Source of the DNA: Catellatospora vulcania
GTDB taxonomy: Bacteria; Actinomycetota; Actinomycetes; Mycobacteriales; Micromonosporaceae
NCBI RefSeq assembly: GCF_009720385.1
Contig: NZ_WARX01000001.1
Span: forward strand, 558,001 to 622,000
Reading direction: 5' to 3'
DNA length: 64,000 bases
Shown: positions 11,208 to 59,770 of the stretch, in pieces
How the letters are laid out: the number at the start of each line of letters is the position of its first letter
Numbering within the stretch: the first letter of the stretch is position 1
The notes under the pieces: model-generated
What the model was told of the DNA's origin: nothing
What the model saw: only the letters and a program-made list of their open reading frames with translations
Database searches by the model: none
Made by a program: the position numbers and the translations under genes

Positions 11208-12428
11208 TCACCCGCTGAGCCCGTCGCGGCGGCGCTCCAGGAAGGCGCGCTCTGCCTCGTTGCCGGTGCCGGTGATCGCGGCCTGGTAGGCGGCGTCGGC
11301 GTCGGCGTCGCGGCCCAGCCGGTGCAGCAGGTCCGCGCGAACCGCGTGGTACACGTGATAGCCGTCCAGGTCCAACGTGTCCAGCACCGCCAGGGCCCGG
11401 CCAGGGCCGTCCACCTCGGCCACCGCGACCGCGCGGTTCAGCGCCACGATCGGGCTGGGCGTCAGTGCCAGCAGGCGGTCGTACAGGGCGAGCACGCGCG
11501 GCCAGTCGGTGGCCGCGGCGTCGGGTGCGGTGGCATGCACCGCGCTGATCGCCGCCTGGAGCTGGTACGGACCCAGCTGCCGCTGCCGCAGGCACCGGTG
11601 GACCAGGGCCAGCCCCTCGGCGATCAGCGTGTGGTCCCAACGGCTGCGATCCTGTTCGGGCAGTGGCACCAGCTGCCCGCTCGGCGTGGTGCGCGCCGCC
11701 CGGCGGGATTCGGTGAGCAGCATCAGGGCGAGCAGGCCCAGCGCCTCCGGCTCGTCGGGCATCAGCTCGGCGAGCAGCCGCCCGAGGCGGATCGCCTCCT
11801 GGCACAGGTCGGCCCGCACCAGCGCGTCCCCGGAACTGGCCGTGTACCCCTCGTTGAAGACGAGGTAGACGACGGCGAGCACGGACCGCAGGCGGGCGGG
11901 CAGGTCGGCGTCGCGGGGCACCCGGTACGGGATGCCCGCGCCCTTGATCTTGTTCTTGGCGCGGACCAGCCGCTGCGCCATGGTCGCCTCGGGCACCAGG
12001 AAGGCGTGCGCGATCTCGGCGGTGGTGAGGCCGCCGAGCAGCCGCAGGGTCAGCGCCACCTGGGCGGTGACCGCGAGCGCCGGGTGGCAGCAGGTGAAGA
12101 TCAGGCGGAGCCGGTCGTCGGGCACGGGCCCCTCCTCGGTCGGGCGGTCCGCGGCGAACAGCAGCGCGGCCTGCGCGTGCCGGTCGTCGCGGGAGGCCTC
12201 GCGGCGCAGCCGGTCCACGGCCCGGTTGCGGGCCGTGGTGATGATCCAGCCGGCCGGGCTCGGCGGCACGCCGCCGTCCGGCCAGCGCCGCACCGCCTCG
12301 GCGAAGGCGTCCTGGACCGCCTCCTCGGCGAGGTCGATGTCACCGAACGCCCGCACCAGCACGGCCACCGCGCGGCCGTACTCCGCGCGGAAGACGCCGT
12401 CGACGCCGGCCGACTCGGGCCTCGGCAA
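11208..12428 (-). CDS. ECF42-type RNA polymerase sigma factor with C-terminal TPR-like extension
   Basis: A 406-residue sigma factor. Sigma region 2 (about 12-80) includes [14 protein letters not shown] and [12 protein letters not shown]. Sigma region 4 (about 120-170) includes [22 protein letters not shown] long C-terminal DUF6596/TPR-like extension from about 185 is typical of ECF42. ECF42 genes characteristically sit beside DGPF/YCII genes, as here. The start is likely TTG 12428, one base after the stop of the upstream DGPF gene (TGAGTTG), implying coupled translation. No classical anti-sigma gene is present. In this group the C-terminal extension is thought to regulate activity. Confidence 0.9.
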
Positions 12429-23867: not shown

Positions 23868-25310
23868 TCAGTTCGCGGGCATCACCGCCAGCCACCAGTC
23901 ACCGGTCAGGTGCTCGGCCTCCACGGTGATGGCGAGCAGGTCCGGATACGCGGCGGTCAGCCCGCGCGCCTTGGCGTCGTCGGAGGACGGGAAGAACTCC
24001 GACTGCCACGTCTGCTGCTCGTAATCCCACCAGGTCTTGACGTCCACGAGCACGCCGTTGATGCGCAGCCGCAGCACGCCGGGCGTCTGCGACCGGGCCA
24101 TGATGCGCACCCCGCCGCTGCGCCAGTCCAGCGTGGCGGTGCGCGGGCCGTCGGCGGTGAACAGCACGCTGGTACCCGTCGCGTACGCGGGCCGGTCCAG
24201 CGGAGGCAGCGTCGCCGGCCGCTCGGGCAGCTCGACCTGGTCGAACCCGACCGCCTCGCCGACGAGCAGGGCGAGCACGCCGTCCGAGGGCGCCACGGTC
24301 GACGGTTCCGGCAGCGGGGTGTCCGGGGTTGCGGGGTAGCTGTACGCCACGTCCAGGTCGAAGGTGACCGTGACCGGTTTGCCGACCTCGACACCGGCGG
24401 CGCGCAGGGTGTCCGCGGCGGGCGTGAGCCTGCTGTCGAAGGACAGCCCGTCCGTCTCGCAGTCCACCGCGCCGAGTTCGTGGCCGCCGACCCACACTTT
24501 GATCGCCAGCGTCAGCTCGTACCCGGAGTGCGTGCAGGCGGGGAAGAATGCCAGGTCGAGAGTGGACGGGGTGAAGGTCAGCCGGCCGCTCCCGGCGGCG
24601 AAGCCGGCCTGCGCGCGCGCTGTGAGGTGGTAACCCTGGTGGTATTCGGACACCCCGGCCAGGCCGTCCGGTTCGCGGCCGGGTCCGATGGCGTACCCGG
24701 CGACACCGGCCACGAGCACGGCCAGCGCCGCCGCGGCGGAGGCGAGCCGGCTGCGTCGCTGCTGCACGATGCGCCGGCGTACGCCCGCGAGGCGCTCGTT
24801 GCCGGCCGGGGCGTCCTCGTCGATCGCGGGAAGGGCCTGCAGGTCGGGGTCGAGCCGCAGCCGGGCCAGGCCCTTGGCGGCGTAGCTCTTCACGGAACCC
24901 GGGGAGATGTCCAGCGCCTTGGCGATCTCCGCCTCGGTGAGGTCCTCAAAGTAACGCAGCACCAGCACGACCCGCTGCTGGCGGGACAGCCGGCCCAGCG
25001 CCCGCCACACCTCGTCGCGCTCGTCGACGGCGGCCTGCGGCGCGGCCATCGGCTGCTCGGGCAGCGACTCGGCGGGACGTTCGCCGTTCCACCGGCGTCG
25101 CCACCAGGACCGGTAGGTGTTGAGCAGCACCTGCCGCACGTACGGTTCCGGGTCGCCGTGGATGCGCTTCCAGGCCGACCACGACTTGACCAGCGCGGTC
25201 TGCAGCAGGTCCTCGGCCAGCGCGTGCTCGCCGGTGAGCAGATACGCGACGCGCAGCAGGTGCCGCGACCGCGCCATGACGAACTCGTCGAACTCTGCCG
25301 TGCCGGCCAT
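23868..25310 (-). CDS. Transmembrane ECF sigma factor, SigE family, fused to an extracytoplasmic sensor (paralogue 1)
   Basis: A 480-residue protein with three parts. Residues 1-160 are a SigE-family ECF sigma factor (TIGR02983-like): region 2 has FDEFVMARSRHLLRVAYLLTG and region 4 has LTEAEIAKALDISPGSVKSY. Residues 189-208 form one transmembrane helix after a basic stretch. Residues 210-480 form an extracytoplasmic beta-rich domain with a Cys pair (259 and 284), a QTPGVLRL strand and a C-terminal ITVEAEHLTGDWW motif. ATG 25310 has AGGAGG about 10 nt upstream. The sigma domain would be held at the membrane, presumably until proteolytic release. The promoter (25348-25374) matches those of its three paralogues. 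Confidence 0.9.
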   Translation of the reverse strand: MAGTAEFDEFVMARSRHLLRVAYLLTGEHALAEDLLQTALVKSWSAWKRIHGDPEPYVRQVLLNTYRSWWRRRWNGERPAESLPEQPMAAPQAAVDERDEVWRALGRLSRQQRVVLVLRYFEDLTEAEIAKALDISPGSVKSYAAKGLARLRLDPDLQALPAIDEDAPAGNERLAGVRRRIVQQRRSRLASAAAALAVLVAGVAGYAIGPGREPDGLAGVSEYHQGYHLTARAQAGFAAGSGRLTFTPSTLDLAFFPACTHSGYELTLAIKVWVGGHELGAVDCETDGLSFDSRLTPAADTLRAAGVEVGKPVTVTFDLDVAYSYPATPDTPLPEPSTVAPSDGVLALLVGEAVGFDQVELPERPATLPPLDRPAYATGTSVLFTADGPRTATLDWRSGGVRIMARSQTPGVLRLRINGVLVDVKTWWDYEQQTWQSEFFPSSDDAKARGLTAAYPDLLAITVEAEHLTGDWWLAVMPAN

Positions 25311-25347
25311 GCTCCGCAAGCCTCCTGATCGCCGCCGTCAGCAATAC

Positions 25348-25374
25348 GTACCGGTTGGACGGCGGCGTCGGTGG
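25348..25374 (-). promoter_or_regulatory. ECF-type promoter of fused sigma paralogue 1
   Basis: On the minus strand CCACC (25370-25374) lies 16 nt before CGGTAC (25348-25353), 37 nt upstream of ATG 25310. The same -35/spacing/-10 layout precedes the other three SigE-family genes in this window. Confidence 0.7.
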
Positions 25375-25422
25375 GGTGGTGTCGCGAGAAAATCTCGCCC
25401 GTAGGTTACGGGCCGGGCCGGG

Positions 25423-26901
25423 TCAGCTGCTCTGCTGCGGGTAGATCGCCACGTACCAGTCGCCGACCAGGCGTTCGGGCTCGACCGTGATGGTGATCGT
25501 CGCGCCGGGGCGTGGTGCGAAGCGGAAGCCGTTGTCGTAGGGGAACGCGGGATCGAGCGCGACGCCGCTGCCGCCTTCCAGCCGCATGAAGGGCGTGCCG
25601 AAGTCCAGATTGGTCAGCAGCGCGCCGTCGACGAGGATGCGCAGCCGGCCGGGTGTCTGCGTGTTCGCCCACACGGTGAGCGGCCCGGTCCAGGTGAGCG
25701 TGGTGCTGTGCGCGCCCGAGGACTCCAGCGTGGTGACCGTCGCCGGGTCGACGCCGCTGTGCAGGGTGCGGTCCAGCGGCCCGTGGGACGCCGCCGTGCC
25801 CGGCCACGGAAGGTCCGCGTACGGGGCGACCTCGCCGATCGCGACCGCGACCGTCCCCGCGGGCAGCGGATCGTCGCCGTGCTGGCCGAATTCGAGGTCC
25901 AGCGTCACGACGGCCGGCTTGCCCGTGATCAGGCCAAGCGCGGCCGGATCCAGCATGGCGAAGAAACCGTCGACGCCCATGTCGCCCTCGCCGTTGCAGA
26001 GGTCCATGCCCCTGCCGGCCGTCCGCCCGTTCACCTGGACGTAGGCGATCAGCGTGTTGAGCTCTCCCAGGTGGCGGCAGGTGAGGAACAGCGCCTCCGG
26101 GCGGCCGCTCGGCGTCCAGGTGAGCGCCGGGTCGAGGTGGGGCGTGTAGTCGTGCTGGGCGGACGCGGTCAGCCGGTAGTAGTCGACGTCGGCGAACACC
26201 CGGCCGCTCTGCGCGAACTGCGGCACCTCGACCGGGAACGCGGGCTCCGGCATCGCGCGGGTGCGCAGGTGCGGCAGCAGCGCGTACGCGGCGATCAGCG
26301 CCAGCGCGAGCAGGCAGGCCGCCGCGATCCCGGCGATGCTGCGGCGGCGGCCCTGCGCGATGCGGCTGCGCACCGCGGCCAGCCGCTCGTTGCCGACCGG
26401 CCCGTCGTCGTCGGGCTGCGGCAGCTCCCGCAGCGTCGGGTCCAGCCGCAGCTTGGCCAGCCCCTTGGACGCGTGCGTCTTCACCGAACCGGCGGAGATG
26501 CCCAGGGTCCGCGCGATGTCGGCCTCGCTGAGGTCCTCGAAGTAGCGCAGCACCAGGACGACCTTCTGCTGCCGCGGGAGCCTGGCCAGGGCGCGGCGGA
26601 GCTGGTCGCGGTCGTCGACGGCGGTGTGCGGCAGGGGCGCGGCCCGTTCGGGCAGCGTCTCGGTGGGGCGCTCGCCGTGCCAGCGGCGTCGCCACCACGA
26701 GTTGTACGTGTTGGCCAGCACCCGGCGCACGTAGGGCTCCGGATCGCCGTCGATGCGCCGCCAGGCCGGCCAGGACCGGGCCAGCGCCGTCTGCAGCAGA
26801 TCCTCGGCCAAGCCGTGATCACCGGTGAGCAGGTACGCCACCCGCAGCAGGTGCCGCGACCGCGTCACCACGAACTCGTCGAACGTCGCCGTCTCGGCCA
26901 T
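25423..26901 (-). CDS. Transmembrane ECF sigma factor, SigE family, fused to an extracytoplasmic sensor (paralogue 2)
   Basis: A 492-residue paralogue of the preceding gene. Sigma region 2 has FDEFVVTRSRHLLRVAYLLTG and region 4 has LSEADIARTLGISAGSVKTH. After the linker NERLAAVRSRIAQGRRR comes one helix (about 190-210). The extracytoplasmic domain has the Cys pair at 275 and 302, the QTPGRLRI strand and the terminal ITVEPERLVGDWYVAIYP motif. AGGAGG precedes ATG 26901. The divergence from paralogue 1 is concentrated in the extracytoplasmic part, which suggests different signals. No separate anti-sigma gene is adjacent. Confidence 0.9.
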   Translation of the reverse strand: MAETATFDEFVVTRSRHLLRVAYLLTGDHGLAEDLLQTALARSWPAWRRIDGDPEPYVRRVLANTYNSWWRRRWHGERPTETLPERAAPLPHTAVDDRDQLRRALARLPRQQKVVLVLRYFEDLSEADIARTLGISAGSVKTHASKGLAKLRLDPTLRELPQPDDDGPVGNERLAAVRSRIAQGRRRSIAGIAAACLLALALIAAYALLPHLRTRAMPEPAFPVEVPQFAQSGRVFADVDYYRLTASAQHDYTPHLDPALTWTPSGRPEALFLTCRHLGELNTLIAYVQVNGRTAGRGMDLCNGEGDMGVDGFFAMLDPAALGLITGKPAVVTLDLEFGQHGDDPLPAGTVAVAIGEVAPYADLPWPGTAASHGPLDRTLHSGVDPATVTTLESSGAHSTTLTWTGPLTVWANTQTPGRLRILVDGALLTNLDFGTPFMRLEGGSGVALDPAFPYDNGFRFAPRPGATITITVEPERLVGDWYVAIYPQQSS

Positions 26902-26936
26902 CCCCGTCGCCTCCTGATCGTCCCGGTCGGCAACTG

Positions 26937-26963
26937 TGACCGCTTGGCGGGCCGATCAGGTTG
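26937..26963 (-). promoter_or_regulatory. ECF-type promoter of fused sigma paralogue 2
   Basis: CAACC (26959-26963) lies 16 nt before CGGTCA (26937-26942) on the minus strand, 35 nt upstream of ATG 26901. It is the same motif as at the three paralogous genes. Confidence 0.7.
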
Positions 26964-27006
26964 AACCGCCGTTCGGGCAGATCCCGGGATGGGTGAGGAT
27001 AACGGC

Positions 27007-27378
27007 GTGGAGATGTGGAACAACCCGTCGTGCTCGAAGTGCGCTGCCGCCCGGGAGACGTTCGAGCTCAACCAGGTGCCGGTGACGCTGCGGCCGTACC
27101 TGGACGCGCCGCCGACCGCGGCCGAGCTCGCCGACGTGCTGGACCGGCTGGGCGCGTCGCCGTGGGAGATCTGCCGGCTGGGCGAGCCGGTCGCCGCCGA
27201 GCTGGGCCTGGCCGGGTGGGACCGCGACGAGGCCGCCCGCCCGCGCTGGATCGCCGCGATGGTCGCGTTTCCGCAGCTCATCCAGCGCCCGATCCTCCTG
27301 CTCGACGACGGCACCGCGATCGTGGGGCGTACCCCCGAAGCCCTGGCCCAGGCGCTGTCCACGCCGACCACCGACTGA
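27007..27378 (+). CDS. ArsC/Spx-family thioredoxin-fold protein
   Basis: A 123-residue ArsC/Spx-family protein. It has the N-terminal NPSCSKCAAA motif (a CxxC pair), a cis-Pro segment in the middle and the C-terminal QRPILLLDDGTAIVGRTPE region found in glutaredoxin-dependent arsenate reductases. GTG 27007 with GAGGA 7 nt upstream is preferred over ATG 26989. It is followed after one base by an ArsB-like transporter, so arsenate reduction and arsenite efflux is an attractive reading. The second Cys and the lack of an arsR gene leave the role open. Confidence 0.82.
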   Translation: MEMWNNPSCSKCAAARETFELNQVPVTLRPYLDAPPTAAELADVLDRLGASPWEICRLGEPVAAELGLAGWDRDEAARPRWIAAMVAFPQLIQRPILLLDDGTAIVGRTPEALAQALSTPTTD

Positions 27379-27379
27379 C

Positions 27380-28603
27380 ATGGCGCAGGCGATCGTCCCG
27401 GCGGAGGCCGTCGGGACCGGGCCCACGCGCGCCCGGACCAGGTTCAGTGGGCTCGACCTGCTCGCGTTCGCGCTGCTCGGCACGGGGCTGCTCGCGGTGG
27501 CGACCCGGCTGGTGCCGCCCGCCGGGGCGGTGGCGACCGGCCGCCGGATCCTGCCCATCCTGATCTTCCTGGGCACGGTGATCGTGCTGGCGGAACTCGC
27601 CGCGCGGGCCGAGCTGTTCGACGTGATCGCCACCCGGCTGACCGGCTGGGCACGCGGCCGCAACGTCGCCCTGTTCGCGCTGTGCTTCGCCTTCGCCGCG
27701 GCGACCACGGCCCTGCTCAACCTCGACACGACGGCGGTACTGCTCACCCCGGTCATGCTGGCCACGGCGGCGCGGGCCGGCGTGCCCCCGCTGCCGTTGG
27801 CGATGACGACGATCTGGCTGGCCAACGGCGCGAGCCTGCTGCTGCCGGTGTCGAACCTGACGAACCTGCTGGCCGCCGACCGGATCGGGCTGTCCGTCGG
27901 CGGGTTCGCCGGAGCGATGGCCCTGCCGCAGGCCGCCGTGCTGGTCGCGGTCGGCGCCTGCCTGTGGATCTTCTACTGGCGCGGCAACCCCGCCCGCTAC
28001 ACCCCGCCCGCGCCGGTGCGGCCACGCGACCGCCGCCTGCTGCTGGCCGCGGCGGCCGCGTGCACGGTGTTCCTCGCGGGCGTGCTGTGGGGCGAGCGGC
28101 TGGAGCTGGTGTCGGCGGTCTGCGCGCTTCTGCTCGTCGCCGCGTACGCCCGCTGGGAGCGGGCCGCGCTGCGCTGGAGCCTGCTGCCGTGGCGGCTGCT
28201 GGTCCTGGTCACCGGCCTGTTCCTGACCGTCGAGGCGGTCGGGCGGCTCGGCCTGGCCGACCTGATGGGCGCCATGATCGGGGCGGACCCGGGTGCGGGC
28301 GGCGTGGTCCGGGCCGCCGTCACCAGCGGGCTGCTCGCCAACGTCGTCAACAACCTGCCCGCGTACGTGGCGGGCGAGGCGGTGGTGGCCGCCGGACACC
28401 GTGACCAGTTGCTCGGTCTGCTGCTCGGGGCGAACGTCGCCCCGCTGGTCACCGCGTGGGCCTCGTTGGCCACGCTGCTGTGGGCGCAGCGCTGCCAGGC
28501 CGCCGGGGTGCGCATCGACTGGGGCAGGTTCGCGCTGACCGGGGCGGTCACCGGGGCCGCCGCGCTGGCCGCCGGGACCGCGGTCCTGCTGCTGGTGCGG
28601 TGA
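27380..28603 (+). CDS. ArsB/NhaD-type ion transporter (SLC13/arsenite permease superfamily)
   Basis: A 407-residue membrane protein with 10-11 predicted helices. It carries the two inverted-repeat signature loops of the IT superfamily, LLPVSNLTNLLAADR and ANVVNNLPAYVA. The large N-terminal repeat ends near residue 200 and the second repeat follows a basic loop (PVRPRDRR). It begins one base after the ArsC-like gene, so the two form an operon. Arsenite export is the likely role. Transport of another oxyanion or of sodium cannot be excluded. Confidence 0.85.
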   Translation: MAQAIVPAEAVGTGPTRARTRFSGLDLLAFALLGTGLLAVATRLVPPAGAVATGRRILPILIFLGTVIVLAELAARAELFDVIATRLTGWARGRNVALFALCFAFAAATTALLNLDTTAVLLTPVMLATAARAGVPPLPLAMTTIWLANGASLLLPVSNLTNLLAADRIGLSVGGFAGAMALPQAAVLVAVGACLWIFYWRGNPARYTPPAPVRPRDRRLLLAAAAACTVFLAGVLWGERLELVSAVCALLLVAAYARWERAALRWSLLPWRLLVLVTGLFLTVEAVGRLGLADLMGAMIGADPGAGGVVRAAVTSGLLANVVNNLPAYVAGEAVVAAGHRDQLLGLLLGANVAPLVTAWASLATLLWAQRCQAAGVRIDWGRFALTGAVTGAAALAAGTAVLLLVR

Positions 28604-28604
28604 C

Positions 28605-29402
28605 TCAGGCCAGCAGGCTGTTCAGCTCGCCGTAGCTCAGGGCCCCGGCCAGCGTGTCGTAGGTGCCCTTGGCCAGCAGCTCCTCGGTCGCCCGGCGCAT
28701 CACCGCGTACGCCGCCTCGGCCACCGACGAGCCGAGGCTCACCCGGGCCACGCCGAGCGCGGCCAACTCGGCGACGGTCGGGGAGCCCGGCCCGGCCAGC
28801 ACGTTCAGCGGCGCGCCCACCCCGGCGACCAGCTCGGCGATGACGGCGGGGTCGGCCGTGCCGGGCACGAAGACGCCGTCCGCGCCTGCCGCGACATACG
28901 CCCGCGCCCGGGTGAGCGCGTCCGCGACGCCGCCGCCGCGCAGGAACGTGTCGACCCGGGCGTTGATGAACAGTCCCGGCCCGGCGGCCTCGCGGGCGGC
29001 GGCGATACGCCGGGCGGCCTCGTCCACCGGCAGCAGCGGCGCGGGGCCCACCCGGTCGCTGTCCTCCAGGTTGACCCCGGCCGCGCCCGTTGCGACCACC
29101 CGCCGGACCGTCTCGGCGACCCCGGCCGCGTCGTCGGCGAATCCGCCCTCGATGTCGGCGGTCACCGGCACGGCCACCGCGCCCGCGACCCGGGCGACCA
29201 GGTCGACCGCGCGGTCGCGGTCCAGCACGCCGCCGTCCGCCGCGCCGAGGCTCCAGGCCACCCCGGCGCTGGTCGTCGCGACCGCCGCCGAGCCCGCCTG
29301 CGCGGCGAGCCGGGCGCTGGCCACGTCCCAGGCGTTGGCCAGCAGCAGCGGGTTGCCGGGGGAGTGCAGGGCGCGGAAGGCGTCGTACTTGTCGATCGTC
29401 AT
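28605..29402 (-). CDS. Isocitrate lyase / PEP mutase superfamily enzyme
   Basis: A 265-residue TIM-barrel enzyme. Metal-site motifs ADIEGGF and NLEDS, the NARVD strand and the segment PLLLANAWDVASARLA place it in the PEP mutase/2-methylisocitrate lyase superfamily. The KKCG active-site loop of true isocitrate lyases is not seen. It probably cleaves or isomerises a 2-oxo acid C-C or C-P bond; the substrate is unknown. ATG 29402 matches family starts. It is divergent from the Ada-AlkA gene. Confidence 0.88.
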   Translation of the reverse strand: MTIDKYDAFRALHSPGNPLLLANAWDVASARLAAQAGSAAVATTSAGVAWSLGAADGGVLDRDRAVDLVARVAGAVAVPVTADIEGGFADDAAGVAETVRRVVATGAAGVNLEDSDRVGPAPLLPVDEAARRIAAAREAAGPGLFINARVDTFLRGGGVADALTRARAYVAAGADGVFVPGTADPAVIAELVAGVGAPLNVLAGPGSPTVAELAALGVARVSLGSSVAEAAYAVMRRATEELLAKGTYDTLAGALSYGELNSLLA

Positions 29403-29435
29403 GGGCCCAGTCCACCACGGGCCCCCGACCGCGGC

Positions 29436-29483
29436 TGGCAGGAAAACGACGTCAGCGCGCCCTGCCACCACGATGTCGTTTTC
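29436..29483. repeat. Interlocked inverted repeats in the PEP mutase / ada intergenic region
   Basis: TGGCAGG (29436-29442) pairs with CCTGCCA (29461-29467). GAAAACGAC (29442-29450) pairs with GTCGTTTTC (29475-29483). The two stems alternate, so they cannot both form a simple hairpin. In DNA they could be overlapping operators for the divergent promoters. Confidence 0.5.
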
Positions 29484-29523
29484 TCGCGAGTGCCCGGGTC
29501 CCCGCCCTGGTTACGGTGAAGTC

Positions 29524-30888
29524 ATGCACGAGGACTTCGAACGCTGCGTACGCGCGGTGCACTCCCGCGACGCCCGCTTCGACGGCTGGTTCTTCACCGC
29601 GGTGACCAGCACCCGCATCTACTGCCGGCCCAGTTGCCCGGTGCCGCCGCCGCAGGTGCGGCACATGACCTTCCTGCCCAGCGCCGCCGCCGCCCAGCAG
29701 GCCGGATTCCGGGCCTGCAAACGGTGCCGCCCCGACGCCAGCCCCGGCTCGCCGCAGTGGAACGCGCGCGCCGACCTGGTGGGCCGCGCCGTCCGGCTGA
29801 TCGCCGACGGGGTCGTCGACCGGGAGGGCGTGCCCGGCCTGGCCGGTCGCCTCGGCTACAGCACCCGGCAGGTGCAGCGGCACGTGCTCGCCGAACTCGG
29901 CGCGGGCCCGCTGGCGGTGGCCCGCGCCCGGCGTGCCCAGTCCGCCCGCACCCTGCTCGAGACCAGCACCCTGCCGATGGGCGACGTCGCCTTCGCGGCG
30001 GGCTTCGGCAGCATCCGCACCTTCAACGACACGGTCCGCGAGGTGTTCGGCCTGACCCCCGGCGAGCTGCGCGAACGGGTCGGCCGCGGCGCGCGGGCAC
30101 AGGCCGCGCCCGGCACCGTCACGGTCCGCCTGGCGTACCGGGCCCCGCTCGCCGCCGACGAGCTGTTCGCGCAGCTCGCCGCCGATACGCTGCCCGGTGT
30201 CGAGCAGTGGCTCGACGGGGCGCTGCGGCGGACCCTGCGGCTGCCGCACGGCACCGGCATCGTGGCGCTTCGCCCGGCCGCCGGGCACGTCGAATGCCGG
30301 CTGACCCTGGCCGACCTGCGTGACCTCGGCAGTGCCGTCAACCGGTGCCGGTGGCTGCTCGACCTCGACGCCGACCCGGTCGCCGTGGACGCCGCCCTGG
30401 CCGCCGACCCGCTGCTCGCGCCACTGGTCGCGGCCGTGCCGGGGCGGCGGGTAGCGCGCGCCGTGGACGGCGTCGAGCTGGCGGTGCGGGCCGTGCTGGG
30501 GCGAGAGGCGGCGGCGCGGCTCGTCATGGCGTTCGGCGAACCGGTCGACGACCCCGACGGGGGCCTGAGCCGCGTGTTCCCCGACGTGTCCGCACTGGCG
30601 GCGGGCGATCCGGCGGCGCTGGAGGTCGCGCCCGCGGTGGAGAAGGCGTTCTCGGCGCTCGTCGACGCGGTGGCTTCGGGCGGGCTGGACCTGGGTGTCG
30701 GCGCGGACTGGGCGGCGGCCCGGCAGAACCTGCGGGAACTGCCCGGACTGGACGAGTCCACGGTGGAACTCATCGCCATGCGCGCCCTCGGCGACCCCGA
30801 CGCCTGGCCCGGGACCGGGCGGCCCGGCGTGCCCGCCGACAGCTGGCGGCCCTGGCGGGCGTACGCCTTCGGGCACCTGGCCGGCTGA
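29524..30888 (+). CDS. Ada-type methyltransferase/activator fused to an AlkA-like domain lacking the catalytic Asp segment
   Basis: A 454-residue fusion. Residues 1-80 form the Ada phosphotriester methyl-acceptor zinc domain with Cys 34, 38, 65 and 68 (IYCRPSCP, ACKRC). An AraC-type helix-turn-helix follows (about 85-185), with GYSTRQVQRHV and AFAAGFGSIRTFNDT. Residues 200-454 form an AlkA N-domain and HhH-GPD fold. In the HhH hairpin the usual GxGPWTA reads GLDESTV. After ALGDPDAWP the segment that normally contains the catalytic Asp (PATD...) is replaced by PGTGRPG and about 20 residues are missing. The glycosylase is therefore probably inactive while regulation may persist. TACGGT (29512-29517) lies 6 nt before ATG. 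Confidence 0.88.
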   Translation: MHEDFERCVRAVHSRDARFDGWFFTAVTSTRIYCRPSCPVPPPQVRHMTFLPSAAAAQQAGFRACKRCRPDASPGSPQWNARADLVGRAVRLIADGVVDREGVPGLAGRLGYSTRQVQRHVLAELGAGPLAVARARRAQSARTLLETSTLPMGDVAFAAGFGSIRTFNDTVREVFGLTPGELRERVGRGARAQAAPGTVTVRLAYRAPLAADELFAQLAADTLPGVEQWLDGALRRTLRLPHGTGIVALRPAAGHVECRLTLADLRDLGSAVNRCRWLLDLDADPVAVDAALAADPLLAPLVAAVPGRRVARAVDGVELAVRAVLGREAAARLVMAFGEPVDDPDGGLSRVFPDVSALAAGDPAALEVAPAVEKAFSALVDAVASGGLDLGVGADWAAARQNLRELPGLDESTVELIAMRALGDPDAWPGTGRPGVPADSWRPWRAYAFGHLAG

Positions 30889-30936
30889 CCGGAACGGTGC
30901 CTTGGCGGGCGGCGCGGCCCGCGATATCGTGCGCCG

Positions 30937-31290
30937 ATGCGAGAGACGTCGATCAGTCGCGGCGCCGCCGGGATGCTCAGCGCGGCGCTGCTGGCCCTGG
31001 TGCTGGCCTACCTCTACGGGGCCGCCGCCTACCTGCTCACCGACGCGGCGTACTTCCCCGAGCAGTCCCCGCCCGGCTGGTCCTGGCCCGCCGTGCTGGT
31101 GACCATGTTCGGCTTCGTACCCGCTGCGGTCCTGCTGGTCTTCGCCTGGCGCGCGTGGAGTTCACCGCAGGTTCGGGCGGACCCGTTCACCCGCCGGCTG
31201 CTGGCCGCGGCCGGGGTGGCCACCGCACTGATGCTGCTGGTGATGGCCACGCCGCCCGGCTGGGAGCTGTTCGACTGGTACGTCAGCTGA
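30937..31290 (+). CDS. Small membrane protein (117 aa)
   Basis: A 117-residue protein with three predicted helices (about 11-33, 48-70, 88-106). The loop after helix 1 (LTDAAYFPEQSPPGWS) is probably extracytoplasmic. No family is recognised. TATCGT (30925-30930) lies 6 nt before ATG 30937. Its last 8 bases overlap the convergent DUF4231 gene. Confidence 0.65.
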   Translation: MRETSISRGAAGMLSAALLALVLAYLYGAAAYLLTDAAYFPEQSPPGWSWPAVLVTMFGFVPAAVLLVFAWRAWSSPQVRADPFTRRLLAAAGVATALMLLVMATPPGWELFDWYVS

Positions 31291-31762
31291 CCGGCTGCTG
31301 CTCCGGCTCCGAGCGGCGCACCGTGCGCTGCTCGGCCCACTGCGACGTCTCCGCGGCGACCAGGCTCTCCACGTTCTCGACCAGCAGCGTGTCGGCGCGC
31401 TCGCCGTCGTAGGGGACCGCGCCCGCGCTCCACACCACGGCCTCGCGCTGCATCGCGACCAGCGTCGCGCTGGCCCGGATCCAGCTCTCGCCCGGCCGGA
31501 CCAGCTGCCGCAGCCCGGCCAGCACCGCGACCGCGGCACCGAGCACCGCGGTGACGGCGGTCGACGCGCCGAGCGCGGCGGCGGCGGGGATGCTCGCGGC
31601 GATCACGACGGTCACCCCCTCCAGGGTGTAATTCGTGATGCGCTGACGGCTCACCTGCTTCGCGTACCAGCGCAGCCGCTCCTGCACGCTCATCGGCAGC
31701 TGCGTGCCACCGGGTGAGGTGAGCCCCTGCCACCAGCTGCGCTGCGCCGTGCCGTCCGCCAT
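31283..31762 (-). CDS. DUF4231 (SLATT-like) membrane protein
   Basis: A 159-residue protein. A helical N-terminus has RLRWYAKQVSRQRITNYTLEG. It precedes two adjacent hydrophobic helices (about 48-85) and a soluble helical C-terminus with GESWIRASATLVAMQREAVVWSAG. This is the layout of DUF4231, a relative of the two-helix SLATT effectors. SLATT proteins are often linked to nucleotide-signalling immunity, but no cyclase or other partner lies nearby, so no defence role is claimed. Confidence 0.8.
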   Translation of the reverse strand: MADGTAQRSWWQGLTSPGGTQLPMSVQERLRWYAKQVSRQRITNYTLEGVTVVIAASIPAAAALGASTAVTAVLGAAVAVLAGLRQLVRPGESWIRASATLVAMQREAVVWSAGAVPYDGERADTLLVENVESLVAAETSQWAEQRTVRRSEPEQQPVS

Positions 31763-31846
31763 CGCGTCCTCCCCAAAGTCCCGATGATGGTGGCACGCAA
31801 CAGGTCCGGGGACCAGACGTGATGGAGATTCCTGACAGCGGCCCGG

Positions 31847-33280
31847 CTACAGGGGCGGGCCGATGGAATGCACGACCACGAACCAGTCCCCGGCCAGTTG
31901 CTCGGGCTCGACCGTGATGGTGACCATGGTGCCCCGGGGGAAGGCGGAGGCGGGTTGGTTGGCGGAGGCGTCGTCCTGCTCGTAGTCCCAGAAGTCGAGC
32001 GTCTGCACCCGCTTGCCGTCGACGAGGATGTGCAGGCGGCCTGGTGTCTGCGCACGTGCCTGCACCGAGAGCGACCCGAGCCAGGCCAGGGTGGTGCTCT
32101 GCGTGCCGGGCTTCAGCAGGACGGCATCGCGCAGCGGCTCGTACAGCGGCTCCAGCGGGAGCAGTTGCTTCGGCGCGGCGGGCAGCGGATACCCGGCGAA
32201 GGGCACGGGTTCGCCGACACCCAACACGAGCGTGCCCCCCTCCGGCATCGGCGCGGGCGCGCAGTCCTGTTGGAACATCTCTCCGCGCCTGATCTGCCGG
32301 TTCCGGCAGACTCCACTGACCTGGGTGGACACCACCGCCGGGCGGCCGGCTTCGGTGAGCAGGTCGAACCATTCGACCCGCAGGTCCACCCGGCGGACGT
32401 CGTTGCACGACGCGGAGCGGTAGTGCGCACCGTTCACGAACACCGACACGCCCACCGACGATCCGGGCAGGTCGTGGAAGCACTCGACGAAGATGTCCAG
32501 ATCCTGGCCCGGCTCCGGAGTCCAGGTCAGCGTGACGCCCTGCGCGCGGGTCAGCTCGCCCGTGGTCGAGGCGAGGACCCGGCGGCCGTCGAGAAAGCGG
32601 GGCCCCGGCAGCTCCGAGGTCGCCGGTTCGGGCAGGGAATGGCTGCGCAGATACGGCGCGACGGCGTAGCCGGTGATGGCCGCCAGCACCACGACGCACA
32701 CCGCGGCGACCGCCGCGATCCGGTTGCGGCGGCGCTGTGCGATCCGTTCGTGCACCGCGGCCAGGCGCTCGTTGCCGACGGGAGCGTCTTCGCCGACTGG
32801 CAGGTCCCGCAGGCTGGGGTCGAGACGCAGCCGGGCCAGGCCCTTCGAGGCGTGGCTCTTCACCGCACCGGGGGAGATGTGCAGCGTCTGCGCGATCTCG
32901 GCCTCGCTGAGATCCTCGAAGTAGCGCAGCACCAGCACCGTGCGCTGCTGGCGGGACAGCCGCGACAGCGCCCGCCACACCTCGTCGCGTTCGTCGACGG
33001 ACGACTGCGGGGCGGGCCTGGCCCGCTCCGGCAGCATCTCGGTGGGGCGCTCGCCGTTCCAGCGCCGCCGCCACCAGGAGTTGTACGTGTTCAGCAGCAC
33101 CTGCCGCACGTAGGGTTCCGGGTTGCCGTCCAGCCGCCGCCACGCCGACCACGAGCGGGCCAGCGCGGTCTGCAGCAGGTCCTCGGCCAGCCCGTGGTCC
33201 CCGGTGAGCAGGTACGCCACGCGCAGCAGGTGCCGCGACCGCGTCGCCACGAACTCGTCGAACTCCGCCGTCTCGGCCAT
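31847..33280 (-). CDS. Transmembrane ECF sigma factor, SigE family, fused to an extracytoplasmic sensor (paralogue 3)
   Basis: A 477-residue paralogue of the genes at 23868 and 25423. Sigma region 2 has FDEFVATRSRHLLRVAYLLTG and region 4 has LSEAEIAQTLHISPGAVKSH. The linker NERLAAVHERIAQRRRNR is followed by one helix (about 188-207). The extracytoplasmic domain includes a Cys pair (FVECFHD and SASCNDV), further Cys residues (GVCRN, QDCAP), the QTPGRLHI strand and the terminal ITVEPEQLAGDWFVVV motif. ATG 33280 matches its paralogues; the longer frame to 33427 runs through the promoter. Confidence 0.9.
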   Translation of the reverse strand: MAETAEFDEFVATRSRHLLRVAYLLTGDHGLAEDLLQTALARSWSAWRRLDGNPEPYVRQVLLNTYNSWWRRRWNGERPTEMLPERARPAPQSSVDERDEVWRALSRLSRQQRTVLVLRYFEDLSEAEIAQTLHISPGAVKSHASKGLARLRLDPSLRDLPVGEDAPVGNERLAAVHERIAQRRRNRIAAVAAVCVVVLAAITGYAVAPYLRSHSLPEPATSELPGPRFLDGRRVLASTTGELTRAQGVTLTWTPEPGQDLDIFVECFHDLPGSSVGVSVFVNGAHYRSASCNDVRRVDLRVEWFDLLTEAGRPAVVSTQVSGVCRNRQIRRGEMFQQDCAPAPMPEGGTLVLGVGEPVPFAGYPLPAAPKQLLPLEPLYEPLRDAVLLKPGTQSTTLAWLGSLSVQARAQTPGRLHILVDGKRVQTLDFWDYEQDDASANQPASAFPRGTMVTITVEPEQLAGDWFVVVHSIGPPL

Positions 33281-33312: not shown

Positions 33313-33339
33313 GTACCGGGTGGACCGGGAGGCTGGTTG
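33313..33339 (-). promoter_or_regulatory. ECF-type promoter of fused sigma paralogue 3
   Basis: CAACC (33335-33339) lies 16 nt before CGGTAC (33313-33318) on the minus strand, 32 nt upstream of ATG 33280. It has the same motif and spacing as the other three SigE-family genes. Confidence 0.72.
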
Positions 33340-56039: not shown

Positions 56040-57116
56040 TCAGGGTCGGTCCTTGCCGGGGATGACTTCGACTACCCAGGTGCCGGTGACGTTGCGTGGG
56101 GTGACGGTCAGGGTTACCCGGGAGCCGAGGGTGGGCGGGGTGAAGCCGACGACGTCCGGCAGGGGGCGGTAGGTCGCGGTCTGCCAGTAGACGCCGGCCT
56201 CGCCGGTCTCGTAGTTCCACCAGGTCGGCGATTCCACCTCGACGCCGTCGAGCGAGATGCCGAGAGTGCCGGGGGTCTGTGAGCGCAGACGCAGGTCGTA
56301 GCGGTCCTGCCAGACGATGGTGACGCTCATCGGGCGCAGCGGGTCGGCGGGGTCGCTGCGCAGCCACAGGTGCTCCTCCTCGGGCGCCTGGTCTACCCCG
56401 CCCATGACGAACACGCCCTCGAAGTCGACGACCGGGCGCAGGGTGGCGGGCCGGGCGGGCAGCGGGTAGTCGGCGTACGCCAGGTGCTCGCCGACGGCGA
56501 CGCTCAGCCACGCGGTCGGCGGCACCGGGAAGTGCTCGTTCCTCTGCTCCTGGTCGCGCCAGACGACCATGCCCGTCGCGGTCATCGTGAGGGTGGCCGG
56601 CGTACCGGTGCGCACGCCGAATTCCGCGGCCGTTGCCTGGTGGTCCGGCCACGAGACGCTGCTGCTGCCGTTGCCGCCGCAGGTGCCGCCGTGGTTGGGG
56701 TGGCCGTTGACCGTCATCTCGTATTCCAGCGCGCCGTCCGCCGCCCCGGTGCCGCAGCGGAAGAAGAGGCGCAGGTCCGTCGTCGTCGGGGTCCAGGTGA
56801 TGGTCACCGACGTCGTGCCCGGCGCGGACTTCGCGGCGGCCACCACATGGGCGCCGACGGCGTACTCCGGGAAGCCCTCGACAAGGCGCGGTAGCGGGCT
56901 CGGGGTGACCGCGGGTTCGGGGGCGCTGCGCAGGGCGGGCGTCACGCCGTACCCGATGAGGACCAGCGCGACCACCGCGGCGAGCGCGCCACCGACGGTC
57001 ATCCGGCGGCGGCGGCGCGTGGCGATCCGGCCCTGCACCTCGTCCAGCCGCAGGTGCTGGCTGAGACCGGTGGGCGGCGCGGAGCGGTCGTCCAGCAGCT
57101 CCTTCAGGTCGATCAT
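56040..57116 (-). CDS. Membrane-anchored sensor protein, separate partner of the SigE-family sigma factor
   Basis: A 358-residue protein that corresponds to the C-terminal half of the three fused sigma proteins. A cytoplasmic segment (1-38) includes LDEVQGRIATRRRRR, matching the fused linker. One transmembrane helix (about 40-58) precedes an extracytoplasmic domain with TITWTPTTTDLRLFFRC, the Cys pair 120/145, QTPGTLGISLDGVEV and a terminal VTPRNVTGTWVVEVIP. ATG 57116 overlaps the sigma stop by 4 nt (ATGA). It may act as an anti-sigma factor with its short cytoplasmic tail. No zinc-binding anti-sigma motif is visible. Confidence 0.85.
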   Translation of the reverse strand: MIDLKELLDDRSAPPTGLSQHLRLDEVQGRIATRRRRRMTVGGALAAVVALVLIGYGVTPALRSAPEPAVTPSPLPRLVEGFPEYAVGAHVVAAAKSAPGTTSVTITWTPTTTDLRLFFRCGTGAADGALEYEMTVNGHPNHGGTCGGNGSSSVSWPDHQATAAEFGVRTGTPATLTMTATGMVVWRDQEQRNEHFPVPPTAWLSVAVGEHLAYADYPLPARPATLRPVVDFEGVFVMGGVDQAPEEEHLWLRSDPADPLRPMSVTIVWQDRYDLRLRSQTPGTLGISLDGVEVESPTWWNYETGEAGVYWQTATYRPLPDVVGFTPPTLGSRVTLTVTPRNVTGTWVVEVIPGKDRP

Positions 57117-57607
57117 GCGAAGGCCCCCTCGATCGTGAGCGACTCGTCCAGTCGCAGCCGGGCCAGCGCCTTGGCGGCCTGGCTCTTCACGGTGCCGACG
57201 GACACCCCCATCACCTCGGCGATCTGCGCCTCGCTGAGATCCTCGAAGTAGCGCAGCACCAGCACGGCCCGCTGGCGGCGGGGCAGCCTGCCCAGCGCCC
57301 GCCACACCTCGTCGCGGGCGTCGACGCCCAGGTGCGGGTCGCTGCCGGCGGGTTCGGGCAGCACCTCGGTGGGCTGCTCGCCCCGCCAGCGCCGCCGCCA
57401 CCAGGTGGCGTACGTGTTGACGAGGATGCGGCGCACGTACGGCTCGGGATCGGCGTCGATGCGCCGCCACGCGCTCCAGGCTTTGACCAGGCTCGTCTGC
57501 AGCAGGTCCTCCGCCTGTCCCCAGTCGTGGGTGAGCAGGTAGGCGGTGCGGAGCAGCCGTGGCGAGCGGGTCGCCACGAACTCCGCGAAGGTGTCGCTGT
57601 GCGTCAC
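57113..57607 (-). CDS. ECF sigma factor, SigE family, stand-alone (paralogue 4)
   Basis: A 164-residue sigma factor, TIGR02983-like, closely related to the sigma parts of the three fused proteins. Region 2 has FAEFVATRSPRLLRTAYLLTHDW and DPEPYVRRILVNTYATWWRRRW. Region 4 has LSEAQIAEVMGVSVGTVKSQ. The chain ends at LRLDESLTIEGAFA, the exact point where the fused paralogues enter their linker. The sensor half follows as a separate overlapping gene. GTG 57607 is the start. The promoter (57636-57662) matches the other three. Confidence 0.92.
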   Translation of the reverse strand: MTHSDTFAEFVATRSPRLLRTAYLLTHDWGQAEDLLQTSLVKAWSAWRRIDADPEPYVRRILVNTYATWWRRRWRGEQPTEVLPEPAGSDPHLGVDARDEVWRALGRLPRRQRAVLVLRYFEDLSEAQIAEVMGVSVGTVKSQAAKALARLRLDESLTIEGAFA

Positions 57608-57635: not shown

Positions 57636-57662
57636 CTACCACTCGGCCGACCGAACGGGTTG
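57636..57662 (-). promoter_or_regulatory. ECF-type promoter of the stand-alone SigE-family gene
   Basis: CAACC (57658-57662) lies 16 nt before TGGTAG (57636-57641) on the minus strand, 28 nt upstream of GTG 57607. It shares the -35 and spacing with the three fused paralogues; the -10 differs slightly. Confidence 0.65.
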
Positions 57663-57742: not shown

Positions 57743-57796
57743 GTTAAGAAGGTGCCCTTCCGCTACCTATAGCGATGTGAAGGTGCCCTTCCTTAC
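57743..57796. repeat. Palindromic repeat of the GAAGGTGCCCTTC type, copy C
   Basis: GAAGGTGCCCTTCC occurs twice (left and right arms) around CGCTACCTATAGCGATGT. Each arm is itself nearly palindromic, so both strands can pair. Its end overlaps the stop codon of the convergent RibD-like gene. Confidence 0.72.
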
Positions 57797-58503
57797 TTAC
57801 GGACGTGGCGGGTGAGGAGGAAGCCCTCGTCGGTGGTGAGGACGTGGGTGGTGGTCATCGGGCGGGGCGGGTGGGGCGGGCCGGCGGTGATGCGGCCGGA
57901 GCCGGGGCCGGCGAGCAGCGGGGAGAGGGTGAGGCAGAGGTCGTCGACGAGGTCCTGCTCGGTGAGGGAGCCGAGCAGGCGGGGGCCGCCCTCGCAGAGG
58001 AGCTGGGTGAGGCCCTGGTCGTGGAGCAGGCGCAGGCCGGTGGCCAGGTCGGGGATGTCGGCGACGTCGGCGACCGCGGACAGCGCGCGGCGGGCGGCCG
58101 GGTCGGCGGCGGGGCCGGTGAGGATCAGGGGGCGTACGGGGGCGTCGGCCAGCGCGGGCGCGGCGGGGTCCAGCCGCAGCGTGGCCGAGACCACGACCAG
58201 CCGGGGGTACGCGGGCAGCCCGTGCTCGCCCCGCCAGGCCCGGCGGGCGGCGTCCAGGGTGAGCGGCCGGTAGCGCTCGTCGCGCAGCGTGCCCGCGCCG
58301 ACGAGCAGCCCGTCGCAGAGTTTGCGCAGCAGCCGGAACACGCGCTTGTCGTCGTCGCCGGAGAGCCCGGCGGACAGCCCGTCCACGGCGACCGCGCCGT
58401 CCAGGCTGGATACGAAGTTCACCCGCAGCCACGGGGTCTGCGCGCGGGGGTGGAGCCGCACCAGGTCTTCGTCGTCCAGTGCGGCCAGGCAACCGGCGAT
58501 CAC
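57793..58503 (-). CDS. Pyrimidine reductase family protein (RibD C-terminal domain)
   Basis: A 236-residue RibD-C/DHFR-fold reductase. It has WLRVNFVSSLDGAVAVDG, DDKRVFRLLRKLCDGLLVGAGTLRDERY, RLVVVSATLRLDP and the glycine motif LLCEGGPRLLGSL. In riboflavin synthesis this domain reduces the ribosyl side chain, but no deaminase domain or other rib gene is near, so the substrate is uncertain. GTG 58503 overlaps the stop of the 39-aa Cys-rich protein (GTGA), implying translational coupling. Confidence 0.88.
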   Translation of the reverse strand: MIAGCLAALDDEDLVRLHPRAQTPWLRVNFVSSLDGAVAVDGLSAGLSGDDDKRVFRLLRKLCDGLLVGAGTLRDERYRPLTLDAARRAWRGEHGLPAYPRLVVVSATLRLDPAAPALADAPVRPLILTGPAADPAARRALSAVADVADIPDLATGLRLLHDQGLTQLLCEGGPRLLGSLTEQDLVDDLCLTLSPLLAGPGSGRITAGPPHPPRPMTTTHVLTTDEGFLLTRHVRK

Positions 58504-58619
58504 TCGCCCGCCGCCCCGGTGGCCGGGGGAGTGGGCTGCGGCGGCCGGTGCTGGCAGTCGCACCAGGACCGGCCCCGGCACTCGCGGTGGCGGCGCTCCC
58601 GGCACGCCTGGCAGATCAT
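58500..58619 (-). CDS. Small Cys-rich (zinc-ribbon-like) protein, 39 aa
   Basis: A 39-codon frame starts at ATG 58619: MICQACRERRHRECRGRSWC followed by DCQH and a Pro-rich tail. It has five Cys and two His in the pattern CxxC...H..C.....CxC.H, typical of a metal-binding knuckle. The stop overlaps the GTG of the reductase gene by 4 nt. Similar tiny CxxC...WCDCQH proteins are common beside such genes in actinomycetes. The function is unknown; it may act on or with the reductase. Confidence 0.75.
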   Translation of the reverse strand: MICQACRERRHRECRGRSWCDCQHRPPQPTPPATGAAGE

Positions 58620-58699
58620 GTGACCACTTTATCCGCGCGGCGGCCCGGGCACGGCCGGTGCGCCGACCCCGGCCGGGCGGCCGGCCGCGGCGGGCGGGG

Positions 58700-59770
58700 T
58701 CAGGGCGTGCCGATGACCGAGGTGACCTCGCCGTTGCGCTTGCGGGGCCGGCAGCCGACCACGACCAGGCAGTCACCGGCCTGCAGCGTGGCGACCTCCT
58801 GCCAGGGCAGCGCCTTGCCGTCGCGCAGCACGGCCACCACCGGCTCGGGGCAGTCACGGGTCGGCCGGCCGATCTCCTCCGGCCGCACCGGGCGTTCGAC
58901 CAGCTCCAGGCCGTCGCCGTGCACCAGCAGGTCCGAGAAGACCTCGCTGACCAGCGGTGACTTGGCGGCGACGCCGAGCAGCCGGCCGGCCGCCGCGGAC
59001 GAGGTGATCACCGCGTCGGCGCCGGAGCGCAGCAGCAGCGGCTCGTTCTCGGCCTCCCTGATCGCGACCGCGACCAGGCACTTCGGGTTGAGCTGGCGGA
59101 CGGTGAGGGTGGCCAGCACCGCGGTGTCGTCGCGGTTGGTGGCCACGATGACGCGTTTGGCGGTGTGCACCGACGCCTGGCGCAGCACCACCGCCCGGGT
59201 GGCGTCGCCGAGCACGGCGGCGAACCCGTCGCGGTTGGCCTCGTCGACGTACTCCTGCCGGCTGTCGACGACCACCACCTGATCCGCCGAGGTGCCGGAG
59301 GCCTGCAGCTGGCGGATCGCATTGGCGCCCTTGGTGCCGTATCCGATGACGACGGTGTGCCCTCGCAAGGTCTTCCTCCAGCGGTCGCGCCGCACCTGAT
59401 CGCGGTAGTTCTTGGTGAGCACCTGGAACGCGGTGCCGACGAGGATGGCCAGGAAGGCGATCCGCAGCGGCGTGATCACCAGTACGTTCACCAGCCGGGC
59501 GGTGGGGCTGACCGGCACGATGTCGCCGTAGCCGGTGGTCGACAGCGTCACCGTGGCGTAGTAGAGCGCGTCCAGCCAGCTCATCTCGCCGTCGGAGCCG
59601 TCCTTGTACCCGGTGCTGTCGGCCATCACCACGCACACGACGGCGGCCAGGATGCCCAGGCCGTACAGGACCCGGCGGGTGATCTGGCGGACCGGCTCGA
59701 TCTCGCGCTCGGGCAGCTTGATCTGTCCGCGCTCGATAGCGGCGGCGCTCTTCCACTTCGGCCCGGCCAT
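58700..59770 (-). CDS. Potassium channel with RCK domains
   Basis: A 356-residue K+ channel. Helix 1 (about 33-52), a pore loop with the selectivity filter TTGYGD (78-83) and helix 2 (about 92-118) form the 2TM pore. A cytoplasmic RCK-N domain (GYGTKG at 143-148, then VVVVDSRQEY) and an RCK-C/TrkA-C domain (about 270-350) follow. It resembles MthK/Kch-type channels gated by nucleotides or Ca2+. TACTCT (59777-59782) lies 6 nt before ATG, so the mRNA is probably leaderless. It is divergent from the ceb operon. Confidence 0.93.
   Translation of the reverse strand: MAGPKWKSAAAIERGQIKLPEREIEPVRQITRRVLYGLGILAAVVCVVMADSTGYKDGSDGEMSWLDALYYATVTLSTTGYGDIVPVSPTARLVNVLVITPLRIAFLAILVGTAFQVLTKNYRDQVRRDRWRKTLRGHTVVIGYGTKGANAIRQLQASGTSADQVVVVDSRQEYVDEANRDGFAAVLGDATRAVVLRQASVHTAKRVIVATNRDDTAVLATLTVRQLNPKCLVAVAIREAENEPLLLRSGADAVITSSAAAGRLLGVAAKSPLVSEVFSDLLVHGDGLELVERPVRPEEIGRPTRDCPEPVVAVLRDGKALPWQEVATLQAGDCLVVVGCRPRKRNGEVTSVIGTP

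Follow-up and report, generated by a model that had tools for sequence, protein, structure and literature searches.

In a 64,000-nucleotide stretch of the Catellatospora vulcania genome (NCBI RefSeq assembly GCF_009720385.1, contig NZ_WARX01000001.1, positions 558,001 to 622,000 of the forward strand; the whole stretch is called the window below), three genes each encode what homology shows to be a natural fusion of a SigE-family extracytoplasmic function (ECF) sigma factor with a single-pass membrane protein; in relatives, that protein is encoded separately, by an overlapping gene downstream of the sigma gene. ECF sigma factors are a main route by which bacteria sense the outside. We read the three chains as fusions because the same window holds the unfused arrangement: P0005, a membrane protein homologous to the rear halves of the fused chains, adjoins the nearest unfused sigma factor, P0006, as a gene of its own. 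P0006 is 67% identical to fused chain P0002 over residues 4-157; leaving the fused trio aside, no sigma domain of this genome is closer to that of P0002. P0005 aligns to residues 172-470 of P0003 through basic linker, helix and ectodomain (30% identity, E 7e-22), and its matches to P0002 (E 2e-10) and P0001 (E 5e-13) fall in the ectodomain. An earlier note on this DNA had described the single-chain architecture, which fits; it had overlooked the split pair at 56040-57607, and with it the fusion explanation. Coordinates are given in Table 1.

Table 1. Fused genes, split pair and promoter-like sites, in window coordinates
Feature	Position	Strand	Description
Fused gene 1 (P0007, 480 aa)	23868..25310	-	sigma domain 1-155, linker, membrane helix ~190-208, ectodomain
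Fused gene 2 (P0002, 492 aa)	25423..26901	-	sigma 1-155, linker, helix ~191-209, ectodomain
Fused gene 3 (P0003, 477 aa)	31847..33280	-	sigma 1-155, hinge 159-171, helix 171-211 (linker + membrane), two predicted beta domains within 229-473
Membrane helix, fused gene 1	24687..24743	-	best 19-residue hydropathy window
Membrane helix, fused gene 2	26275..26331	-	best hydropathy window
Membrane helix, fused gene 3	32663..32719	-	best hydropathy window and AlphaFold2 model
Split (unfused) SigE-family sigma gene (P0006, 164 aa)	57113..57607	-	
Membrane partner gene (P0005, 358 aa)	56040..57116	-	homologous to fused linker + helix + ectodomain; membrane helix 56931-56987
ATGA	57113..57116	-	partner start overlapping sigma stop
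Partner N-terminal motif	57081..57113	-	IDLKELLDDRS; not found in fused linkers
Promoter-like site before fused gene 1	25349..25374	-	CCACC-N17-GGTA, one mismatch to consensus
Promoter-like site before fused gene 2	26938..26963	-	CAACC-N17-GGTC, one mismatch
Promoter-like site before fused gene 3	33314..33339	-	CAACC-N17-GGTA, exact
Promoter-like site before split sigma gene	57637..57662	-	CAACC-N17-GGTA, exact

All three fused chains are open, without an internal stop. For fused gene 1, the ATG at 25310 is a likelier start than the TTG at 25319, because the former restores the MAxTAEFDEFV-like N terminus of its paralogues. Whole-protein scores against the SigE family TIGR02983 are 189.9, 188.2 and 192.3 bits, all above the NCBIfam cut-off of 141.55, and Sigma70_r2 and r4_2 exceed their Pfam cut-offs in each chain, giving an ECF sigma fold. 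A single hydrophobic stretch is present per chain (Kyte-Doolittle, 19-residue window, >1.6), its best window starting at residue 190 in P0007 (by its own numbering), 191 in P0002 and 188 in P0003. An AlphaFold2 model of P0003 made from 22 sequences (mean predicted local distance difference test score 75.8, predicted template modelling score 0.53) contains sigma helices, a low-confidence hinge of about 13 residues (159-171), one continuous helix (171-211) that takes in both the linker and the membrane segment, and an ectodomain rich in beta structure. Hydropathy, charge and the model together predict a sigma domain inside the cell and an ectodomain outside, joined by one positive-inside helix. 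The recurrence of this layout in 42 fused relatives, 41 of which have one membrane segment and all of which have lysine and arginine more often before than after the helix, means that it is no artefact of a single reading frame. The earlier note's picture of a complete SigE-family sigma factor followed by a short basic linker, a membrane helix and an ectodomain of about 270 residues is borne out by frames, family scores and hydropathy, which predicts a helix from about residue 190 in all three.

The two halves of these chains differ in conservation: within the trio, sigma halves are 74-81% identical and ectodomains 32-38%, which fits the earlier suggestion that different ectodomains serve different signals. 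No Pfam family was found for the ectodomain in the three fused chains, and among PDB sequences the sole matches were antibody chains, none better than E 0.31. In the P0003 model the ectodomain is predicted to form two beta domains with weak likeness to carbohydrate-binding modules (CBM6/35/36). We took none of these matches to a known fold or family as proof of function.

To follow the fused and split forms among relatives, we built a profile, A1, from linker, helix and ectodomain and searched it in the 11 genomes of the genus (C. vulcania included) and in 200 sampled genomes of the family. A1 matched in all 11 genus genomes, each of which has the fused form; in the family sample it matched at E 1e-10 in at least 37 of 200 genomes and at least 13 of 44 genera, the 37 being a lower bound because ten candidates were scored per genome. 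The family search that the earlier note had proposed for other sigma-helix-sensor chains thus turned up 42 fused relatives. With 26 split loci and four orphan ectodomain genes they make up the 72 loci kept; we excluded truncated duplicates and any sensor match below 250 residues, rows that include partial fused chains (G049, G026), fragments (G001, G003, G007) and short matches such as L101 and L120. The split pair occurs in 10 of the 11 genus genomes, in one of which (G006, L031) the sigma frame ends early. Complete fused copies number one to four per genus genome, with fragments left in some. Such fragments of fused-type genes were seen in three genus genomes (L092, 18295, 85 amino acids; L090, 16407, 71 amino acids; L086, 13074, 261 amino acids), a sign of gain and loss in the cluster. 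Beside Catellatospora, the matches indicate fused forms in three more genera, Hamadaea, Rhizocola and Longispora; for Longispora, partial fused chains were found in one genome and four complete chains in a second of the same genus code. Split forms were found in Micromonospora, Lentzea and a Jiangellales bin.

Split junctions were read in 25 of the 26 pairs, L031 being left out for its early stop. In 24 of the 25, sigma stop and partner start share an ATGA or GTGA; the exception, L070, was read with a CTG start. At the N terminus of the separate partner, 24 of the 25 carry DL[KR]xLLDERS or a close form. None of the 42 fused linkers has it, by a looser expression run over the stored linker and by a score matrix run over the first 30 residues: the best fused score was -1.3 and the median -6.6, compared with a mean of -6.2 for their own shuffles and a leave-one-out median of 32.7 for the split partners. 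(L067, with DLKQMLDERS, fails the printed expression and passes the looser one; L079 does the reverse.) Fused linkers have instead a common signature, PxGNERLxAVxxRI, ahead of the basic patch (P 92%, G 92%, R 100% and V 100% of 42). A third arrangement occurs in three genomes of one other genus (L109, L110, L111), where the gene for ectodomain and helix overlaps the end of the upstream gene and the sigma gene is absent between them. Here the partner begins MIDLGEI, the remainder being unlike the motif. The upstream gene, which we take to be pyrimidine-reductase-like, is 61% identical over 199 residues to the window gene at 57793-58857 (minus strand) that precedes the split sigma gene. Because the motif is present in split partners, absent from fused linkers and mostly gone from the sigma-less partner, and because the cytosolic parts of fused chains are shorter, the sequences suggest that it serves contact with a separate sigma factor.

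The same relation between fused and split forms holds across the SigE family of C. vulcania. In a TIGR02983 census in which 150 of 182 candidates were scored, 33 genes exceeded the cut-off, and every one is either fused (8) or has a membrane gene directly downstream (25). In the 25 unfused cases the helix of the downstream protein begins at residue 36-47, leaving a cytosolic part of 35-46 residues, and the partner start overlaps the sigma stop in 23. In a survey of anti-sigma domains, class I domains (ASDI) shorter than 50 amino acids were set aside as possible class II (PMC7406223). One further gene, L286, was the sole below-cut-off match examined, chosen because its frame is long. In a tree built from the 33 genes, the fused label requires four changes (4-4 in bootstrap trees), and five when L286 is included; if these changes are read as gains, fusion would have occurred some four or five times among the ancestors of these genes. 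L260, L264, L268, L270, L278 and L286 are further fused sigma-membrane chains with other ectodomains, from about four further fusion events, and two of the three members of one such clade gave weak matches to a PD40 propeller. The total cytosolic length is 46-122 residues in the split genes (median 54, n=25) compared with 27-38 in the nine fused chains, and every fusion clade lies below all 25 split genes (p 0.0008 for four clades; p 0.0003 for five, with L286).

For the window genes and their 42-member group, the trees are compatible with a single origin of the fused form. One branch parts fused from split in the sigma-domain tree (Shimodaira-Hasegawa-like approximate likelihood ratio test, SH-aLRT, 83), so that the fused label changes once, compared with a mean of 21.0 when labels were shuffled; none of 500 shuffles was as low. 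Constraining the ectodomain tree to one fused clade improved it by 6.53 log units and was not rejected by the approximately unbiased (AU) test (p 0.705). Midpoint rooting alone was used for the trees, and that the split form came before the fused one is inferred from how many relatives are split. The window genes fall into three groups common to other species of the genus and thus look like old paralogues. The local expansion that the earlier note had suggested therefore looks older than a recent local burst. Fourfold sites differ between the window paralogues by 26-36% in the sigma half compared with 42-57% in the ectodomain half, saturation lying at 55%. We considered recent gene conversion and dropped it because the paralogues cluster by orthology and not by genome.

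Upstream alignments within genus groups revealed a conserved CAACC-N17-SGTA 55-66 bases before the start of both fused and split genes. Exact matches lie upstream of 26 of the 42 fused and 13 of the 26 split genes, with an N16 form in eight more of the split; shuffled upstream regions gave a mean of 0.03 exact sites per set, and no CAACC-SGTA was found in the fused and split regions at spacings of 12-15 or 18-22. These counts support autoregulation through the site, as a reading of upstream sequence, and cross-talk among SigE-family paralogues is possible. We do not claim a wider regulon, because genome-wide matches lie near background: CAACC-N17-SGTAC summed over the 11 genus genomes gave 174 sites compared with 80 for a backward control, and CAACC-N17-SGTAS in C. 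vulcania also lay near its control, as given below. Several of the genus-wide sites listed recur nearly letter-identical in many species, where conserved coding sequence is possible, and many of the C. vulcania sites seem to lie inside genes on a rough look at open frames, with ten loci viewed closer. Two species (L220 and L249) share an identical intergenic CAACC-N17-CGTAC 44 bases upstream of the possible start of a small membrane-protein gene, presumably PspC-like, that is a possible regulon member.

The fused SigE-family chains are an addition to the known sigma/anti-sigma fusions. The external domain of one of these, IutY of Pseudomonas putida, is of the FecR type, and no match to the FecR Pfam family was found up to E 1 in the three fused chains. 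IutY (ECF243) is a natural sigma/anti-sigma hybrid whose release by proteolysis has been demonstrated (PMC5411451, PMC8999054); truncations across its periplasmic domain yield a constitutively active sigma factor, and release requires Prc and RseP (PMC5411451). For the actinobacterial ECF52 protein SCO4117, release by proteolysis has been proposed (PMC5826349, PMC8999054). IutY and the present chains are alike in having sigma factor, one membrane segment and external regulatory domain in one chain; they differ in that IutY receives its signal from an outer-membrane siderophore receptor (PMC5411451), whereas here the host is an actinobacterium, the sigma factor is of the SigE family and the ectodomain has no Pfam match. 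The ordinary SigE-family sigma factor with its downstream membrane gene, as in the split pair of the window, shares homologous sigma, linker, helix and ectodomain, but consists of two proteins from overlapping genes and has the extra N-terminal DL[KR]xLLDERS. The mode of action may be like that of IutY and ECF52, although their defining features, as far as tested (FecR domain and zinc finger), were not found. On how the sigma factor is held in check in the SigE (TIGR02983) family of actinobacteria, we found no paper in a literature search that ran mostly outside subscription papers.

Taken together, we think it fairly probable that each window gene encodes a sigma factor fused to its former membrane partner, inhibited by tethering, autoregulated and, by analogy with IutY, released by proteolysis. 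In the membrane, the chain would have its sigma domain inside and two beta domains outside, and at rest the covalent tether would hold the sigma domain away from the chromosome. The earlier note had likewise presumed that a tethered sigma factor needs release or unusual promoter access. A ligand from outside the cell, possibly a glycan, would set off cleavage, first of the ectodomain and next of the membrane helix, which, as in IutY, would free a sigma fragment of ~18-20 kDa. The freed sigma factor would turn on its own gene through CAACC-N17-SGTA, and possibly the genes of its paralogues. In the separate partner, the N-terminal motif would be the part most likely to bind sigma; the fused chains lack it, and a released sigma factor would therefore carry no inhibitor needing prior degradation. 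A site-2 type protease family (M50) is over cut-off in the C. vulcania genome, as it is in 14 of 14 control genomes.

Several observations weigh against this account or parts of it. The unconstrained ectodomain tree places two changes of the fused label, not one; the support of 83 in the sigma tree is below the level at which branches were starred; and in the own-genome tree the starred branches force only three of the four changes, some of which may be re-splitting. At the promoter, an exact site is missing at both spacings in 16 of the 42 fused and five of the 26 split regions, fused genes 1 and 2 of the window have one-mismatch sites only, and CAACC-N17-SGTAS has 23 matches in the genome compared with 14 for its backward control. 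Of 30 other SigE-family genes, 7 are likewise preceded by CAACC, four of them with N16 and CGTC or CGTA. Both the promoter pattern and the partner motif were drawn from the sequences in which they were then counted, with kin counted many times, and the junction script picked whichever start lay closest to the stop. The motif could be missing simply because the deletions behind the fusions happened to remove it, and its loss in fused chains, rather than gain in split ones, is a polarity taken from midpoint rooting. Finally, the split partner P0005 matches no Pfam family up to E 0.1, which does not help its identification as an anti-sigma factor.

The strongest alternative, though an unlikely one, is that the sigma factor is active while tethered, much like membrane-bound one-component regulators such as ToxR or CadC: the ectodomain would alter clustering or shape, and RNA polymerase would be recruited at the membrane without any cleavage. 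The low-confidence hinge between sigma and helix could give the necessary reach, and PxGNERLxAVxxRI is kept more strongly than a mere spacer needs; a sigma factor, however, has to join polymerase and leave the promoter, and our literature search found no tethered ECF sigma factor that is active. IutY, the nearest studied fusion, works by cleavage (PMC5411451). Less likely still is that the fused sigma factors are largely decoys, titrating polymerase, promoter or partner, with the split pair as the working switch. The near-constant split pair of the genus and the varying, sometimes fragmentary, fused copies described above would suit this; yet the family scores of 188-192 bits, and sigma halves that are conserved while ectodomains drift, imply strong constraint on the sigma factor, and three genomes keep a fused gene though the split sigma gene is absent from its own locus. 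That the genes represent an already described membrane-linked actinobacterial group (ECF48, ECF52 or ECF53) and nothing more is comparably improbable: these too are actinobacterial ECF sigma factors with a C-terminal membrane extension, in the same order of sigma, helix and C-terminal domain, and SCO4117 has a carbohydrate-binding module outside (PMC5826349, PMC8999054), but they have a cytosolic zinc finger before the helix, for which the signature in anti-sigma domains is Hx3Cx2C (PMC7406223), whereas linker and helix here hold at most one cysteine in 42 of 42 and no zinc-finger Pfam family matched up to E 1 in the three fused chains. An existing ECF group number may nonetheless cover part of the clade.

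Around the fused genes, the earlier note's description of paralogues interleaved with unrelated genes is right for the third, which is set apart by such genes, and not for the first two, which are adjacent, with 103 nucleotides between them. On the opposite strand between the fused genes lies an ArsC-family gene followed, after 1 nucleotide, by an ArsB/CitMHS-type transporter gene (26989-28603, plus strand). A gene at 29452-30888 (plus strand) joins Ada metal-binding, AraC-type helix-turn-helix and AlkA N-terminal domains in one chain, and its product is probably a DNA-alkylation response protein. A small DUF4231/SLATT-like protein (Pfam DUF4231, E 6.4e-14) is encoded at 31283-31762 (minus strand), 84 nucleotides downstream of fused gene 3 on the same strand, and could be co-transcribed with it. 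Farther away, another sigma-like gene (11208-12428, minus strand) has a long C-terminal part without a membrane segment; we take its product to resemble the ECF42 type.

Fused and split versions in one genome amount to a natural experiment, and they point to a motif of ~11 residues as the probable sigma-binding part of the separate partner. Side by side, the two forms also make inhibition by tethering alone directly testable. We tentatively raise a broader possibility: that the membrane anchor is itself the anti-sigma device and activation, with the sigma-binding peptide lost, a single cleavage, that fast-diverging sensors feed one promoter type, and that fusion arose repeatedly in the SigE family by short deletions in overlapping pairs, each yielding a functional single-chain receptor. 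If this were true, the paralogues would constitute a switch with many sensors and one output, in which tethering takes the place of binding.

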